A stretch of DNA of 64,000 nucleotides from Stieleria varia (lineage in GTDB: Bacteria; Planctomycetota; Planctomycetia; Pirellulales; Pirellulaceae). Below the pieces are notes generated by a model, which searched no databases, was not told where the DNA came from, and saw only the letters and a program-made list of their open reading frames with translations. Numbering within the stretch: position 1 is the first letter of the stretch; every line of letters starts with the position of its first letter. Position numbers and translations under genes: made by a program. The stretch covers positions 9,548,001 to 9,612,000 of the forward strand of contig NZ_CP151726.1 of the NCBI RefSeq assembly GCF_038443385.1, written 5' to 3'. Positions 40,232 to 46,866 of the stretch are shown here, in pieces.

Positions 40232-41347
40232 TCAGGCTGGAGAAGGCCGTCCGTAGTGATAGCCTTGGCCGAGATCGAAGCCGAGATCTTTGCAGGCTTC
40301 GGCTTCCTCGAGTGTCTCGACACCCTCCGCCAGTGCTCGTATTTCTAAGTCTCTGACCATTTGCACCAACGTTTGCAGCATTCGTCGCCGATGCGTGTCT
40401 GCGGTATCGATCGCACGGATGAGCGAGATGTCAAACTTGACAAAATTTGGACGCGATTCGATCAGTTCGGCCAATCGCGCCTGACCGGCACCAAAATCGT
40501 CAAATGCGAGCCGGATATCCAGGTCCTTCATGGCACTGGAAAGCTCTGACATCAGTCGACGATTGGTCACCGCGGCTTCATGGATTTCGAGGACCAGGTC
40601 GGTGTTGCCCGACATCTCGCGGACTTTGACCAGGGAATGAATCAATCCCTGGCTGTCGGTCATTTCCTTGGGGTGTGTGTTGACAAACAGGGTCGGATGG
40701 CCGGGCAATTCTCGCCCTACTCGAATGCCTTCCCAGCGGAGCAACCGACTCAGTTCGACTTCCATGTTCAACTGCTCAGCGGCTTGAAACATAGCACCGA
40801 CGGACTCGAGGCCAAAAACGCTACCGCGTCCCAGCACTTCGTATCCCACTGTCGCGTTGTCATCGATGTCGATGATCACTTGAAAGTGGGGACGGACGAG
40901 ACGTTGGTTCATCATCCGATCGAACTGAACGAGCGCCAGGGCTTCGTCACAGACATTTCGAGCGAGGGTTCCGGAGGCATGTCCGGTGGGCGACTGACGG
41001 AGCACCCGAAAGGGCGCTTCGGCAAAATGGATCAGGTCCTCTTCACCCACCGGGACTTCTTCCGTGACACGCTTGCCGTTGACGTAAGTCCCGTTGGTGC
41101 TACCCAAGTCTTGCAGATAGAGTCGGCCTTCACGCACGCTCAGTCGGGCATGGTTGCCGCTGACGGTTCGATATTGCAACCTCAATGCGTTTCCGGATTT
41201 GCGACCCACGACAAAATCCGGCTCGTCGATCGCGAAATGGCGTAGCGAATCTTCGGGTTGTAGGGATCCCGAGAGAAACCACACATCGCCGTGCACGACC
41301 GTGCTCGTACGAAGTCGATCAAAGGCGACGCTATCGATCGAAGGCAT
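40232..41347 (-). CDS. FHA-EAL protein, probable c-di-GMP phosphodiesterase
   Basis: The ATG at 41347 puts the FHA domain near the N-terminus (371 residues); the frame is open to 41434. The FHA domain has VGRKSGNALRL, then VSGNHARLSV and LQDLGSTNGTYVNGKRV, the phosphothreonine-binding signature. The EAL domain (about 130-365) retains the catalytic set in variant form: YEVLGR for EALLR, LFVNTHP, VLEIHE, FDDFGAG, FVKFD, ALAEGVET and LGQGYHYG. It should hydrolyse c-di-GMP in a way tuned by binding a phosphorylated partner, a plausible bridge between the many Ser/Thr kinases here and surface behaviour. The neighbouring polysaccharide operon may be its target. Confidence 0.9.
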   Translation of the reverse strand: MPSIDSVAFDRLRTSTVVHGDVWFLSGSLQPEDSLRHFAIDEPDFVVGRKSGNALRLQYRTVSGNHARLSVREGRLYLQDLGSTNGTYVNGKRVTEEVPVGEEDLIHFAEAPFRVLRQSPTGHASGTLARNVCDEALALVQFDRMMNQRLVRPHFQVIIDIDDNATVGYEVLGRGSVFGLESVGAMFQAAEQLNMEVELSRLLRWEGIRVGRELPGHPTLFVNTHPKEMTDSQGLIHSLVKVREMSGNTDLVLEIHEAAVTNRRLMSELSSAMKDLDIRLAFDDFGAGQARLAELIESRPNFVKFDISLIRAIDTADTHRRRMLQTLVQMVRDLEIRALAEGVETLEEAEACKDLGFDLGQGYHYGRPSPA

Positions 41348-41591
41348 GTGAATTCGTCCAGAACCAGCGTGAAGGATGAAGGCAGTAATCAGTGAAAACA
41401 TAGGTTGCATACAACGCGTGGCGACTGGCGTCACATTTTTCTTGCTCTCACCGCGGTTGAAATGCTTCGCCCTGCGAATTCTCGCTGCATCACGGACTGA
41501 GTTTCATCAGACACTAAGTGCGAGCTAGTTTTCAACCGATCGGTCTGCCAGTGCCGAACCAATCACCGTCCTTGAAAACCTCATATTCGTC

Positions 41592-42917
41592 ATGAACTCT
41601 CTGATCCACGAAACACAATCGATCGATGGAAGCCTGCTGGGTAGCCTGCTGACCGACGACACGTTCTGGCCGACAGAACCACAGAGTCTCGAGGAAACAG
41701 GATTGAGCGAGTCATTCATCGAGGGATTGGTGCTCAAGATCGTTCGTCAGGGAGGAACATTGAGCGGGCGTTCGACGTCGGAGAAAGTAGGACTGCCGTT
41801 TCGCGTTGTGGAACCACTGTTGGATGTTCTGCGAACGCGCAAGCTGATCGCACACGTCCGTCCGGCTCCTTTCAACGACTACTACTATTCACTGACCGAA
41901 CTGGGCCAAACTCGTGCTCAGCAATGCATCAAGCAATGCAGTTACGTCGGCCCCGCGCCTGTCCCTCTGTCCGACTACGTGCTCAGCGTGGAGGCCCAAG
42001 CGGCCGGGCTGGACCCGATCTCGCAAGACGAATTGCGTCGTGCGTTGGCCGGGATCTCCTACCAGATGGATCTGTTGGAAGAGATCGGACCTGCAATCAA
42101 CAGCAATACAGGCATGTTTCTGTTCGGTGATCCGGGCAATGGCAAGACAACGCTGGCGAAATGCCTGACGACTTGCTTGGGCCAAGAAATCTGGATCCCG
42201 CATGCGATTTTGGATGACGGCAATCTGATCAAGCTGCAAGATGACGCGTTTCATCACACAGCACCGGTGCCGGAATCCAACAGCAATTTCCTCAAAGCGC
42301 AAGAGTGGGATCGCCGTTGGGTTCGCATCCAGCGTCCCACAGTGATGGTCGGTGGCGAACTGGTAATGGACAATCTGGAAGTGCGTCATGATCCACGCAG
42401 CAACATCAGCGAGGCACCGTTGCAAATGAAGAGCAATTGCGGCTGCCTGCTCATCGATGACTTTGGACGCCAACGCATCGCGCCGGAGGAGTTGCTCAAT
42501 CGATGGATCGTTCCGTTGGAGAATCGCTGCGACTTCTTGACCTTGCCGACCGGAAAGAAGATTCAGATTCCGTTTGCGCAGATGCTGATCTTTTCGACCA
42601 ATCTGGATCCAAACTCGTTGGTCGACGAAGCGTTCTTGCGTCGCGTGCCGTACAAGATCTTTGTCGGCGATCCCGGACCGGATGAGTTTCGCAGGCTGAT
42701 GGAAAGCGTCGCGGAGAAGATCGGTTTTCCCAAAACACCCGAAGCCGCCGAACATTTGTTGGCTTACTACCAAAAGAGCAAACGCAAGATGCGTCGATGC
42801 CATCCACGTGACTTGCTGACTCAAGTCGCCAACTACTGTCGGTATCGTCAGATTCCTTTGACGATTCGCCCCGAGTATCTCGACCGTGCATGTCGAACCT
42901 ATTTCAGCCATCTGTAA
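41592..42917 (+). CDS. AAA+ ATPase with N-terminal winged-helix-like region
   Basis: The 441-residue protein has an N-terminal region of about 110 residues (SESFIEGLVLKIVRQGGTLSGRSTSEKVGLPFRVVEPLLDVLRTRKL) that looks like a winged helix. The ATPase core (about 145-400) has Walker A GDPGNGKT at 179-186, Walker B CLLIDDFGR, sensor I IFSTNLD and an arginine-finger-like DEAFLRRVP. It resembles MoxR/RuvB-scale AAA+ remodelling enzymes, but I cannot name the subfamily. It precedes the kinase-tubulin gene by 68 bases on the same strand, so the two probably work together. A long antisense frame covers this gene but is not credible. Confidence 0.88.
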   Translation: MNSLIHETQSIDGSLLGSLLTDDTFWPTEPQSLEETGLSESFIEGLVLKIVRQGGTLSGRSTSEKVGLPFRVVEPLLDVLRTRKLIAHVRPAPFNDYYYSLTELGQTRAQQCIKQCSYVGPAPVPLSDYVLSVEAQAAGLDPISQDELRRALAGISYQMDLLEEIGPAINSNTGMFLFGDPGNGKTTLAKCLTTCLGQEIWIPHAILDDGNLIKLQDDAFHHTAPVPESNSNFLKAQEWDRRWVRIQRPTVMVGGELVMDNLEVRHDPRSNISEAPLQMKSNCGCLLIDDFGRQRIAPEELLNRWIVPLENRCDFLTLPTGKKIQIPFAQMLIFSTNLDPNSLVDEAFLRRVPYKIFVGDPGPDEFRRLMESVAEKIGFPKTPEAAEHLLAYYQKSKRKMRRCHPRDLLTQVANYCRYRQIPLTIRPEYLDRACRTYFSHL

Positions 42918-42985
42918 ACGAACCGCAAGTGGTCCTCGTGCCGGATGGCACTGTTCCCTGATCTGTCACATCTCCTGAATTCCCG

Positions 42986-45900
42986 ATGAAGACCGAAACC
43001 GAAAAGAAGATTCAACCCGGATACGAGCCGATCAGCGGCTACGTATTGGAACAGTTGATCGGTCGTGGTGGTTATGGCGAAGTCTGGCGGGCAGTGGCTC
43101 CGGGTGGATTGAAAAAGGCGGTGAAGTTTGTCTTCGGCCAACACGATGAACACCGCGCTCAGCAGGAACTGAAATCGCTCGAACGTATCAAGTGTGTTCA
43201 GCACCCCTTCATTCTGACCTTGGAACGATTTGAGTTGATCGACAATCAGCTCGTGATCGTGACCGAACTGGCAGACGGATCGCTCGAAGACATCTTTCAA
43301 CAACACCGTGACCGCGGGTCATGCGGCATTCCGCGTGCTGCGTTGTTGTCGTATTTGAAAGACACCGCCGATGCATTGGACTACTTGCATCAGCTCTATC
43401 AACTGCAGCACTTGGACATCAAGCCGGCCAATCTGCTGATCGTCGGTGGCCACGTCAAGGTCGCCGACTTTGGACTGTTGAAGGACTTGGGTGAATCGGA
43501 CTGCAGTTTGGTCGGTGGATTGACGCCCATTTATGCGCCCCCGGAACTCTTTGACGGGCGGCCGAGCATGCACAGCGACCAGTACAGTCTGGCGGTCATG
43601 TATCAGGAATTGGTCAGTGGTGTCCGACCATTCACCGGACGTACCATTGCTCAATTGGCGACTCAGCACGTCCACAATGCGCCGAATCTTGAGTCGCTGC
43701 CAGCGGCAGACCGACCGATCGTTGCGCGGGCCTTGGAAAAATCTCCCGAACGACGCTTCGGCAGTTGCACGGAATTCGTCTCCAAGCTGACAACACCGCG
43801 ATCAACTCCCTCTGTTTCCTCCAGCCACGAGAGTGAGCCTCCGCAGGAGCCCACAGAGCATCGTGTCGAAGATCTGCCTCAATTGCAGGCGGCTTCTGGG
43901 CTCAAGCATGGAATCATGTCTCGCGATGCGTTGGTCATTGCCTTGGGGGGAACCGGGGCTGACATCCTGCACGCGCTGCGTCGACGAGTCGCCGAAATGC
44001 ACTCGGCCCCGCCGGTTCGTCTGCACAGTGTGCTGATCGATACCGATCCGATCGCTTTGCAAGCCGCCAAGGTCATCGAACCGACGGATTGGATGCCCGG
44101 CTGCCGAGTGATCGACACGCCGCTGCGAAGAGCAACCGAGTATCGTGAACGTGGCACCGAACACTTGAGAACGCTCTCCCGACGCTGGATCTATAACATT
44201 CCTCGCAGCGGGACAACCGAAGGCATGCGGCCGCTGGGCCGCCTGGCTCTGGTCGATCATGCCGCTGCTGTGACCCGCGGCATCAAGAATGCGATCGCCG
44301 AACTGAAGTCCGATGGGGATGAAGATGACCTCTCGATCTACGTCGTGGGCTCCCTTTCGGGAGGAACCGGCAGCGGCATGTACATCGATGTCGTGCACCT
44401 GCTGCGATACTTGTTGGACGACGCCGGCTTGGAGAGGCTGGAGATCATTTCCCTGCTGACGACCAATCGAATGAAGGGAGACCCCAATCGCGTTCTGGGG
44501 CTTCATGGCACGCATGCCGCGTTGCATGAGATGATGCACTTCATGAAAATCGAAAACGGCTATCCCGGGGATCCCGGGGCCGGCTGGCCAAGCATTCCTG
44601 CAGCTCGTACTCCACTAAAAAGCGCCTACTTATTTCCTCAATCCGATGCGCAGGGTGCTCGATCACCGCGCGAGATCGCGACGGAGTACCTGTGGGCAGA
44701 CGCCACGGCCTGCGGTCACTTGCTCGAAACCGGACGGCGTCTGGTCGAGTCCGACGACTTGGTGATGGACCAACCACAAATCCGTTCCGCTTCGATGGTT
44801 TGGATCGGTGACGCCAGACGAGTCCAGGCCGGTGTCTTAGCTCAGCCGACGACTCGATTGTTGTTGATGCAATGGCTCGGTGATCCCAAATCTGCGGCTG
44901 AACTTGCACGTCCCGTCGTCGATCGCACCATCCGCCGATCCTTTTTGAATCACGAATCATGGATCAAGCAGTCCTTGCAGTACTTTGGCAAAGATCGAGC
45001 AGATCGCCGCACCGCGTTGATGGAACACCTGCGCACCATCACGCCGGACAGACTTAGCATCGCCGATGTCGCTCATGCGGAAACGGTGAAGTGGTTGCAG
45101 AGCATCATCGATGGCGAACGTGAACTGATCGCCGTTCAAGAAATCACGCGAAACATCCAACATGAGATTTCCATCCGACTACAAGATCGCCGCATGAACC
45201 TCGCATCGGCGATCGAGGCTCTGTCGACTCTCGAAAACCACATCGCATCGATGATACCAAGCCTGATCGAACAGGCTGAGTCTGCCCTGCCAGCCGCTCC
45301 CCATTCCGGTTCGAACCAAACTCTACCGTCCTCGCTGGGTAACTTGCGGGTACTGCGGACCGCGTGCGATCGTGGAGAAACTGTGATGCAAGCTGTCGCA
45401 GCGAGACTCGCAGCCGATACAGCGCATGCCCTGAAAGCAGAACTTTCCAAGTTAAAGGAAGACATCTGTGACGGTGCCGCCAAAGTAGCGCTCGCAATCA
45501 GTCGACTGTCCGAGGACACAAACCAGCGCGGCAATCCATGGGATACCATGGATGGGCAAAGTCGATCTCAATTCCAGCCGCTATTGGAGAGTCTGCACGC
45601 TCGGGCATCCAGCCAATGGCTGATCAAGCTGGCTGGACCAAACATTCAATCGGTCAGCGTCGATGCGATGAACACCGCGATCAGCGGGCTTGCCATGAGC
45701 CTCATCGGTGAGTTGTTGGAACATCTGGGCAGCGAAAGGATCGCTCAATCGATGGAAAGCGATTCAAGACTGGGGCTCAATGACTCCGGTTCAGGCAAGG
45801 AGACAGCTGCCATGTCGAGCGTGGGTTCCGATTCGATCGGAATGACAGGCACACATTCCCTGAGCGAGAACAGAGAAACGACGAGCGCACCCGTTCCGCT

Positions 45901-46204
45901 CAACATGTCTGATGCGTTGGTTGCCGTGCGACCACCGCTGCTGCAATGCGGCGGAAAACAACGTTTATTCCTGGTTTGCAGCTCTGACAACGAGTGCGAG
46001 AAATTCGAGTCCGAGATCCGCCAATCGCACGAGGGCACACTGACAACCTTTGTGGCTCGCTCCGCTGCGTCGATGTTGATTCACGAAGCCCAGCAAATAC
46101 CGCTGGACCGAGTCATTCGTTTGCTGGGTTCCGTAACGGGTGATGACGGCAGGATCAGCGGTCGACTGCACGCTCGAACCGACGTCCAGTTCGACAAACC
46201 TTAA
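42986..46204 (+). CDS. Ser/Thr kinase fused to a tubulin/FtsZ-like domain
   Basis: This 1072-residue protein joins two enzyme types. The kinase (about 18-270) has GRGGYG at 26-31, KKAVKF with Lys47, HLDIKPAN at 142-149 (HLD in place of HRD), DFG at 161-163 and APPE near 184. After a Pro/Ser-rich linker comes a Rossmann-like GTPase: ALVIALGGTGADILHALRRRV at 315-335, matching the first nucleotide loop of tubulins, and YVVGSLSGGTGSGMYIDVVHLL at 452-473, whose GGTGSG equals the tubulin signature loop (FtsZ has GGTGTG). SVLIDTDP supplies a further strand. This is the pattern of Pfam Tubulin_2. The last 450 residues are helical with no named domain. It lies 68 bases after the AAA+ gene. Whether it polymerises is unknown. 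Confidence 0.88.
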   Translation: MKTETEKKIQPGYEPISGYVLEQLIGRGGYGEVWRAVAPGGLKKAVKFVFGQHDEHRAQQELKSLERIKCVQHPFILTLERFELIDNQLVIVTELADGSLEDIFQQHRDRGSCGIPRAALLSYLKDTADALDYLHQLYQLQHLDIKPANLLIVGGHVKVADFGLLKDLGESDCSLVGGLTPIYAPPELFDGRPSMHSDQYSLAVMYQELVSGVRPFTGRTIAQLATQHVHNAPNLESLPAADRPIVARALEKSPERRFGSCTEFVSKLTTPRSTPSVSSSHESEPPQEPTEHRVEDLPQLQAASGLKHGIMSRDALVIALGGTGADILHALRRRVAEMHSAPPVRLHSVLIDTDPIALQAAKVIEPTDWMPGCRVIDTPLRRATEYRERGTEHLRTLSRRWIYNIPRSGTTEGMRPLGRLALVDHAAAVTRGIKNAIAELKSDGDEDDLSIYVVGSLSGGTGSGMYIDVVHLLRYLLDDAGLERLEIISLLTTNRMKGDPNRVLGLHGTHAALHEMMHFMKIENGYPGDPGAGWPSIPAARTPLKSAYLFPQSDAQGARSPREIATEYLWADATACGHLLETGRRLVESDDLVMDQPQIRSASMVWIGDARRVQAGVLAQPTTRLLLMQWLGDPKSAAELARPVVDRTIRRSFLNHESWIKQSLQYFGKDRADRRTALMEHLRTITPDRLSIADVAHAETVKWLQSIIDGERELIAVQEITRNIQHEISIRLQDRRMNLASAIEALSTLENHIASMIPSLIEQAESALPAAPHSGSNQTLPSSLGNLRVLRTACDRGETVMQAVAARLAADTAHALKAELSKLKEDICDGAAKVALAISRLSEDTNQRGNPWDTMDGQSRSQFQPLLESLHARASSQWLIKLAGPNIQSVSVDAMNTAISGLAMSLIGELLEHLGSERIAQSMESDSRLGLNDSGSGKETAAMSSVGSDSIGMTGTHSLSENRETTSAPVPLNMSDALVAVRPPLLQCGGKQRLFLVCSSDNECEKFESEIRQSHEGTLTTFVARSAASMLIHEAQQIPLDRVIRLLGSVTGDDGRISGRLHARTDVQFDKP

Positions 46205-46755
46205 CCGTGACAGGCTGCCGCCACACTGCATCCGCTGCAACCGCCACTGCCACAGCCGCTCGATTCGCCACCGCAACCGGGTCCGCAGCCCTCTTGCAAC
46301 AGCTTTGCAAAATGATCCGAGCGGACCGTCTCTTCGTAACAGGCCGCAATCTGCGCCGAGATCCGTTCGGCTATCGCATCGACGTCACCCAGAAAGTGCA
46401 TCACCAGCGCGCCGCCATTGATCATCTGATCCACATCCAACAAGACCGCTTGGCTGCCCGCCTCGGCCAACGCCCGTCGACAGCTCTCCACGGCATCACG
46501 CTTGTGTTGCTCCAGTCGTTCAATCAGCAATTCATCCGATGCGTCGGTCGGCCTCAGAATCTTGTACCCCGGTGCCGCATCGGCCAACTGCCGACTTTGC
46601 GCCGCCGGCGACGTGGAACTGCGTCCACAGACGACCCCCAGCTCCAGGCCACGTGGTGATCGCAGCACAACTCGACAGCCGTGCTCCAAAGTCAGGAGGG
46701 AGCCGGCCACACGGACCTGCGCCAGTGCCCCCACGCGGACGAAATACTGTTCCAT
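46201..46755 (-). CDS. PSP1-domain protein with Cys-rich tail
   Basis: The start is the ATG at 46755, since homologues begin near the first beta strand; an ATG 12 bases further up is also possible. The 184-residue product has the PSP1 pattern (YFVRVGALAQVRV, then GCRVVLRSPRGLELGVVCG and later VLLDVDQMINGGALVMHFLGDVDAIAERISAQI). PSP1 proteins include RicT (YaaT), a factor in RNA processing and phosphorelay in Firmicutes. The C-terminus is a Gly/Cys tail with nine cysteines in about 30 residues (CGPGCGG, CGSGGCSGC), which could bind metal or an iron-sulfur cluster; RicT-family complexes are known to carry such clusters. The gene converges on the kinase-tubulin gene with a four-base overlap. Confidence 0.8.
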   Translation of the reverse strand: MEQYFVRVGALAQVRVAGSLLTLEHGCRVVLRSPRGLELGVVCGRSSTSPAAQSRQLADAAPGYKILRPTDASDELLIERLEQHKRDAVESCRRALAEAGSQAVLLDVDQMINGGALVMHFLGDVDAIAERISAQIAACYEETVRSDHFAKLLQEGCGPGCGGESSGCGSGGCSGCSVAAACHG

Positions 46756-46866
46756 TGGGTTTTTCAATCACAAAATAGTCAGGTGACTTGTCGGATCGCT
46801 CCGCTCTGCCCACCATGGTGGTCGATTTGCCCACGCATCGCAAACCAGCCTTCCCAAAACGGCAAA

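Follow-up and report, generated by a model that had tools for sequence, protein, structure and literature searches.

Locus layout and gene content

The stretch examined here (the window) is 64,000 nucleotides in length and corresponds to G000:C1:9548001-9612000 of a planctomycete genome held in a single 9.72-Mb contig. It contains a group of three genes encoding a Ser/Thr protein kinase fused to a tubulin-like domain of the FtsZl1/Tubulin_2 type (KT), a AAA+ ATPase (AAA1), and a protein in which an FHA domain is joined to an EAL domain (FHA-EAL). Judged from the sequences of the window and its relatives, the best explanation of the locus is a chromosomal planctomycete signaling module of at least three parts, with a GGDEF protein (diguanylate cyclase type) as a fourth part in some relatives. 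Its features are as follows, with open reading frame abbreviated as ORF.

41592..42917, + strand: AAA1, winged helix-turn-helix (wHTH) and AAA+ ATPase, 441 aa (ORF, motifs, AlphaFold2 model, Foldseek)
42986..46204, + strand: KT, Ser/Thr kinase-FtsZl1/Tubulin_2 fusion, 1072 aa (ORF, Pfam, model, alignment)
43040..43762, + strand: protein kinase domain of KT, residues 19-259, catalytic residues complete (PF00069, E 2.6e-32)
43931..44473, + strand: Tubulin_2/FtsZl1 nucleotide-binding part of KT, residues 316-496, with T1 loop at 318-326 and T4 loop at 458-464 (PF13809, loop conservation, fold)
45062..45769, + strand: long helical segment of KT, probable coiled coil, approximately residues 693-928 (model helices 398-633)
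45866..46201, + strand: conserved C-terminal segment of KT, residues 961-1072, with R1060, R1064, and D1066 (18-row alignment, profile TUBC)
40232..41434, - strand: FHA-EAL, predicted cyclic di-GMP (c-di-GMP) phosphodiesterase with a phosphothreonine-binding domain (PF00498, PF00563)
41435..41591, no strand: 157-bp intergenic region between the divergent FHA-EAL and AAA+ genes (ORF coordinates)

The AAA1 and KT ORFs are separated by 68 nucleotides. Both ORFs and this gap had been described in an earlier sequence-only reading, and the ORF coordinates agree with it. That reading treated the locus as a gene pair; both genes are real, and the third partner on the opposite strand, and hence the link to c-di-GMP, was overlooked. 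The 157-bp intergenic region is possibly a regulatory region shared by the divergent genes.

The kinase-tubulin fusion protein

In Pfam, KT matches PF00069 over residues 19-259 (E 2.6e-32) and PF13809 (Tubulin_2) over residues 316-496 (E 1.4e-23, 84.2 bits against a cut-off of 27). The sequence-only reading had proposed searching with these two profiles. The Tubulin_2 match spans only profile positions 1-208 of 356, and the match to PF00091 reaches only E 0.018. Each motif previously read from the sequence was found at its position: K47, HLD at 142-144, DFG at 161-163, IALGGTGAD at 318-326, and SGGTGSG at 458-464.

Residue conservation was scored in an alignment of 104 fusion proteins. Kinase residues K47, N149, D161, F162, and G163 are present in 103, the remaining row being gapped, and E61 and D144 are present in 102. 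By this alignment, the kinase carries the K, E, D, N, and DFG set expected of an active Hanks-type Ser/Thr kinase. The loop glycines G321 (104 of 104 rows) and G459 (101 of 104) are almost always kept, so nucleotide binding is probably retained. Outside the genus, identity is mostly 53-61% for the kinase part and about 30-37% for the tubulin part.

An AlphaFold model of KT residues 296-1072 was built from 70 aligned sequences (model residue 1 is protein residue 296) and has a pLDDT of 88.3 and a pTM of 0.76. All 50 listed Foldseek matches in the PDB (of 896 at E<=10) are FtsZ, tubulin, CetZ, TubZ, or tubulin-sized chains, the last from microtubule, gamma-tubulin-ring, and tubulin-cofactor entries. 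Structure prediction had been put forward as a check on the tubulin call, and the model places KT with the FtsZ/tubulin superfamily. The best E-value is 3e-5, and the TM-scores by target are only 0.29-0.48; the resemblance to tubulin and FtsZ structures is therefore partial. A profile of the tubulin part, when compared with the sequences in the PDB, returned helical-bundle noise, with no tubulin among the 60 matches listed, which made the fold search necessary.

Beyond the nucleotide-binding part, the model has long helices (model residues 398-633), while the final 80 residues are mixed alpha/beta. Within the C-terminal segment, R1060 and R1064 are invariant and D1066 is nearly so (18 rows). 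The idea that the partners dock on this segment, and that it therefore comes and goes with their genes, was considered and rejected. A first count looked clean, but its two exceptions (L139 and L167) carry the segment in a different frame, and weak remnants of it persist in several proteins without partners, which points to divergence only. At L139 and L167 the KT frame is interrupted, possibly by an assembly error.

Two further Tubulin_2 proteins are encoded in the same genome (L005:6688-12753 and L004:9946-13089). The L005 protein has no kinase match and is preceded by a gene with PKD and VWA (just below cut-off) matches. This arrangement resembles the vWA/FtsZl1 operons described in PMC2875224.

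The FHA-EAL protein and coupled decay of EAL and GGDEF

The FHA-EAL protein of the window matches PF00498 (E 3.4e-18) and PF00563 (E 1.8e-35) in Pfam. It contains all eight of the residues that we take to be the metal and c-di-GMP active site of EAL domains, and all five that we take to be the FHA ligand residues (G, R, S, H, and N). It is accordingly a predicted c-di-GMP phosphodiesterase and a predicted phosphothreonine reader. Bdellovibrio DgcB reportedly has an FHA-GGDEF make-up. It is alike in coupling an FHA domain to a c-di-GMP enzyme and unlike in making c-di-GMP instead of degrading it; we know of no tubulin or kinase fusion of DgcB.

A total of 76 non-duplicate FHA-EAL proteins was scored, and the state of the GGDEF motif was called by regular expression. 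All eight EAL active-site residues are kept in 56 proteins, and 0-5 are kept in the other 20, with no intermediates. A GGDEF gene is present in the locus of 23 of these proteins. The seven with an intact EAL site are accompanied only by intact GGDEF proteins, and the 16 with a degenerate EAL site are all accompanied by a degenerate GGDEF protein, one locus (L115) having two intact ones in addition. GGDEF genes at L071, L114, and L140, where no FHA-EAL was scored, were set aside.

In 74 of the 76 proteins the set of FHA ligand residues is complete, and the other two are cut by contig ends. Because the FHA ligand and kinase residues are near-invariant while the EAL and GGDEF sites vary, the kinase and the phosphothreonine reader form the constant core, with c-di-GMP catalysis optional. 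On a quick FastTree phylogeny of 104 rows, EAL decay takes five Fitch changes against a shuffled mean of 17.9. Support is weak (0.40 at the node that unites every row with a decayed EAL), which leaves the count of independent EAL losses uncertain. Several genomes (G032, G039, G044, and G050) have a degenerate copy beside the fusion and an FHA-EAL with a better profile score elsewhere. The genome of the window also has a second FHA-EAL gene (G000:C1:1471829-1472929, 406 bits to the FHA-EAL profile).

The AAA+ ATPase and its relatives

AAA1 falls below every Pfam and NCBIfam cut-off and has only sub-threshold P-loop matches (AAA_22, E 0.0046). Little or no variation is seen across 38 aligned rows in its Walker A (GxPGNGKtT), Walker B (LLIDDFGRQ), FSTN, and RR motifs. 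The wHTH was called from predicted N-terminal helices and strands, without a family match. An AlphaFold model from 38 sequences (pLDDT 87.1, pTM 0.81) has as top Foldseek matches an uncharacterized Pyrococcus protein (8p49), RuvB, a magnesium chelatase subunit, NorQ, spastin, and Msp1. By its conserved motifs and the fold match of the model, AAA1 is identified as a AAA+ ATPase, in agreement with the earlier call for 41592-42917. The Foldseek matches do not decide its function.

AAA1 has homologs on proteobacterial plasmids, with 36-38% identity over 94% in Rhizobium and 32% in Burkholderia stagnalis; in 74 of 75 plasmid records a single place covers at least 80% of the query. All five proteobacterial cases examined lie in tad/Flp-pilus loci. 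The Rhizobium homologs follow two genes annotated as type II secretion F-family, which we read as TadB/TadC. The Paraburkholderia homolog sits between genes annotated as prepilin peptidase and CpaB, and the Ensifer and Burkholderia homologs (L188 and L194), whose records are unannotated, were placed in tad loci by tblastn with Rhizobium Tad proteins. The tad/Flp-pilus AAA+ protein of Rhizobium etli p42e, RHE_RS25680, is 37% identical over 94% of AAA1 and belongs to a pilus assembly locus, whereas planctomycete AAA1 mostly adjoins the kinase-tubulin gene. Planctomycete AAA1 is hardly ever near tad genes, so the link to pili rests on homology. A tad-pilus neighborhood of planctomycete AAA1 was itself considered and rejected. 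Only L068 and L102 offered CpaF-like matches, and that of L102 was not reproduced in a tblastn recheck of one AAA2 locus and seven loci in which AAA1 lies apart from the fusion. The genome of the window has tad genes elsewhere.

A second AAA+ paralog (L066:8304-10382; G000:C1:7219116-7220372) is approximately 46% identical and widespread in the order. With the pair type included, 56 of 60 relatives have some AAA+ match. No recurrent partner is visible beside the paralog in the one locus viewed.

Conserved gene neighborhood

Two sets of loci were compared. The first comprises the window and 40 stretches (L066-L105), plus L004 and L005, with L066, L004, and L005 taken from the genome of the window itself and the others from relatives. 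It contains 31 fusion loci including the window; two kinase-only loci (L084 and L105) were set aside, and seven same-genus genomes with the fusion were left out. The FHA-EAL gene is adjacent to the fusion in 29 of the 31, the exceptions being L073 and L083; two of the 29 (L071 and L087) were found by FHA-EAL profile search instead of ORF clustering. At nine loci (L069, L081, L093, L095, L097, L099, L101, L103, and L104), AAA1 is not beside the fusion, yet FHA-EAL is directly upstream of it.

The second set, drawn from named genomes, is the best 80 of 469 stretches confirmed as relatives. Of these, 56 have a clear fusion ORF with no less than 3.5 kb of upstream and 1.5 kb of downstream sequence, and the other 24 were dropped. 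Within 5 kb of the fusion, AAA+ is present in 40 of the 56 loci, FHA-EAL in 42, both in 35, and neither in nine. The AAA+ gene is immediately upstream on the same strand in 37. Six of the nine partnerless loci have no C-terminal profile match, and four of those six are titled Gemmatales or Gemmataceae.

In the full set of 80, AAA+ is present at 55 loci, FHA-EAL at 53, GGDEF at 14, and the next family at six. Ten families occur in five or six loci: DUF1501, sulfatase, RecJ, DUF1553, an ABC ATPase, DUF2617, uracil-DNA glycosylase, deoxyhypusine synthase, a PQQ repeat protein, and one without a Pfam match. They are mutually unrelated and thus provide no further coherent partner. The order GGDEF, FHA-EAL, AAA+, fusion is found on a single strand in L159, L164, L169, L171, and L178. 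Over 44 loci, the distances of the AAA+, fusion, and FHA-EAL proteins are correlated (Mantel r 0.63-0.78), as those of genes inherited together are.

Two Gemmatales loci (L175:8980-13305 and L168:9520-13304) have the fusion followed by a common gene family, which in L175 is scpA (chromosome segregation, PF02616). Neither locus contains the AAA+ or FHA-EAL partner.

Distribution of the fusion and the AAA+ gene

Among 60 relatives, 35 have both the fusion and pair-type AAA1, one has the fusion only (G017), none has AAA1 only, and 24 have neither. The Fisher p for this table is 7e-16 with kinship ignored, a value that overstates significance because related genomes are treated as independent. The pair-type AAA+ scores at least 487 bits in 33 genomes, and the near-universal paralog scores at most 457 bits. 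AAA1 fragments at contig edges in G021 and G033 were counted as present; if counted as absent, the table becomes 33, 3, 0, and 24. G020 was scored as kinase only, G040 as positive though just its tubulin part matched, and the fragments of G014 as the paralog. Conservation of the two-gene link in related genomes had been proposed as a check on the sequence-only reading, and with a single discordant genome in 60 the pair is conserved.

Of 244 genomes sampled evenly across the phylum, at least 14 match the tubulin-part profile at E<=1e-10, ten of them strongly. This is a lower bound, with at most four candidates per genome scored among the matches listed. The eight strong genomes outside the 60 relatives all have a pair-type AAA+ (at least 529 bits) on the same contig within about 5 kb. 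In 13 profile-negative genomes the best AAA+ scores at most 448 bits, and in the four genomes with weak matches (G263, G086, G119, and G155) at most 438 bits. The 24 relatives without the fusion include G011 of the same genus, at 96% completeness. The nearest named relatives found with the fusion are Stieleria sedimenti and Rhodopirellula sp. SM50, at 52% in the best segment.

Relation to published families

The FtsZl1 family was described by Makarova and Koonin (2010; PMC2875224), together with four planctomycete proteins that have an N-terminal protein kinase. These share with KT a nucleotide-binding tubulin-like domain, a coiled-coil and helical C-terminus, and the N-terminal kinase, and their T6-H7 elements are not identifiable. 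The operons given there consist of vWA, protein kinase (PK), GTPase, and OmpA genes, whereas AAA+ and FHA-EAL are the widespread partners here. No description of a AAA+ partner was found in the accessible text. A diguanylate phosphodiesterase (EAL) neighbor in Pirellula staleyi (Psta_0487) is raised there by a reviewer alone, and the authors reply that such neighboring genes are confined to one or several related organisms. The vWA neighbor is typical of FtsZl1, not universal; no VWA match was found among the window neighbors searched or the ten next recurrent families.

According to a 2024 study (PMC11032199), of the associated domains that are exclusive to cytoplasmic planctomycete Ser/Thr kinases, the tubulin-like one is the most frequent. 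The passages concerned deal with that domain alone, and the term AAA is absent from the main text. The kinase-tubulin fusion is also mentioned in PMC9871819 (2023). Apart from the reviewer remark in PMC2875224, no published description of the AAA+/FHA-EAL/fusion module was found among the titles, opening lines of abstracts, and text passages of openly accessible papers that the search covered. The fusion is thus already published, and its three- to four-part signaling context and the coupled decay appear to be new in the literature searched.

Proposed function and alternatives

The reading we favor, and hold about equally likely to be right or wrong, is a phosphothreonine-gated signaling complex on a tubulin-like scaffold, tied to c-di-GMP, with remodeling by the AAA+ protein and a surface process as output. 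The domain content, the kept catalytic and ligand residues, the gene linkage, the co-occurrence, and the joint decay of EAL and GGDEF are observations. We infer physical interaction of the parts, phospho-gating, GTP-dependent assembly, AAA+ remodeling, and the output along the following lines. The kinase, taken to be cytoplasmic, would phosphorylate threonines on itself, on its partners, or on both. The FHA domain would read this mark and bring the EAL protein to the scaffold, and c-di-GMP breakdown would be switched by phosphorylation at a place set by that scaffold. In lineages where EAL and GGDEF are both dead, signaling would proceed without catalysis, the dead enzymes serving as receptors. 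The tubulin-like domain with its long helices would be the oligomeric scaffold, which the AAA+ protein may remodel or disassemble. The output would probably be some surface process under c-di-GMP control, for example attachment or the working of an appendage, as suggested by the pilus relatives of the AAA+ protein together with the c-di-GMP enzymes.

Several observations weigh against this reading. The second T1 glycine, G322, is present in only 81 of the 104 fusions and the T4 glycine G462 in 87. No T7 motif of the NxDxxD type was found, near-invariant columns being absent between model residues 220 and 335. Since these glycines vary and the T7-type motif is not visible, GTP hydrolysis and polymerization are uncertain. 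Of the earlier proposal of a kinase and GTP-driven assembly in one protein, the joining of a kinase to a GTP-binding domain holds by their motifs; GTP-driven assembly and a AAA+ remodeler are hypothetical. A conserved threonine in the kinase-tubulin linker was considered as the FHA ligand and ruled out, as no linker column is conserved as Thr in the 104 fusions; Thr is most constant at T180 of the activation loop (96%) and at column 211 (95%), where the window protein has Ser. Hydrolysis of c-di-GMP cannot be the output in all cases, since the EAL site is degenerate in 20 of 76 proteins. A GGDEF gene was found in a minority of loci, and two of the seven intact GGDEFs (L119 and L127) are located downstream and may be unrelated. 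Fusion loci of the Gemmatales type have neither partner nearby. The two CpaF-like matches noted above are the only ones in planctomycete AAA1 neighborhoods, and no tad protein is encoded beside AAA1 in the window.

A more specific form of the favored reading is less probable. For local second-messenger control, it would have a GTP-assembled polymer of the tubulin superfamily with its own kinase, phosphothreonine-FHA recruitment and switching of a c-di-GMP phosphodiesterase, and a dedicated AAA+ disassembly factor, with both c-di-GMP enzymes decayed together in some lineages, where the scaffold would signal without catalysis.

A membrane-remodeling or cytoskeletal system, in which tubulin-like filaments shape an internal membrane and the kinase and FHA-EAL merely regulate them, is a less probable reading that still deserves consideration. 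Membrane remodeling is the proposal made for the FtsZl1 family in PMC2875224, and the superfamily fold of the KT model and the absence of a recognizable FtsZ in the genome agree with it. The recurrent neighbors, however, are signaling proteins. The ten next families include one ABC-transporter ATPase and one BamB-like PQQ repeat protein, and no vWA, OmpA, or GTPase. A simple 19-residue hydropathy scan found no transmembrane-like stretch in AAA1, KT, or FHA-EAL of the window, and the T7-type loop is not seen.

That the tubulin-like domain has degenerated into a nucleotide-binding scaffold or sensor, with GTP level or oligomer state tuning the kinase and no filament formed, is unlikely. The far better conservation of the kinase part, the less constant G322 and G462, and the missing T7-type motif are in keeping with such a sensor, but G321 and G459 are retained in nearly every row, and the authors of PMC2875224 state that all FtsZ/tubulin proteins characterized by then form filaments.

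The sequence-only reading had also suggested a cytoskeletal or defense-like module in a phylum in which many members lack FtsZ. A substitute for FtsZ in division is very improbable. The genome has no TIGR00065 match over cut-off (13 bits against 295; 13 of 14 control genomes pass), and KT itself has no conserved T7-type column, but the fusion is patchily distributed (at least 14 of 244 phylum genomes) and absent from 24 of 60 relatives, including same-genus G011, relatives in which FtsZ was not searched for. KT is probably not a division FtsZ.

An anti-phage or conflict module is just as improbable: the kinase domain resembles the MAD6 and PD-T4-6 models, the AAA+ protein has partial IetA matches, and tubulin-containing conflict systems are described in PMC7159879, but the PADLOC and NCBIfam matches (no search was made for the partner genes of MADS, PD-T4-6, and Iet) cover just the generic kinase domain or a P-loop fragment. 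In addition, the partners are c-di-GMP proteins, the protein distances are correlated as in genes inherited together, and the window flanks include, for example, genes for a biotin synthase-type radical SAM protein and a cation efflux protein.

In the literature found, no function is assigned to FtsZl1/Tubulin_2 proteins as a branch of the tubulin superfamily. The conserved set, in which a tubulin-like GTPase domain and the kinase fused to it are joined by a reader of phosphothreonine, enzymes of c-di-GMP turnover, and a AAA+ protein, offers a specific function that can be tested. If the favored reading is true, a cytoskeletal-type fold would be tied directly to c-di-GMP signaling in bacteria living without FtsZ.

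Flanking genes

Besides the radical SAM and cation efflux proteins, the module is flanked in the window by a polysaccharide export protein and a two-component system. A minus-strand gene (46201-46767) overlaps the last bases of KT and has a weak PSP1-like match (E 0.0046, below cut-off).

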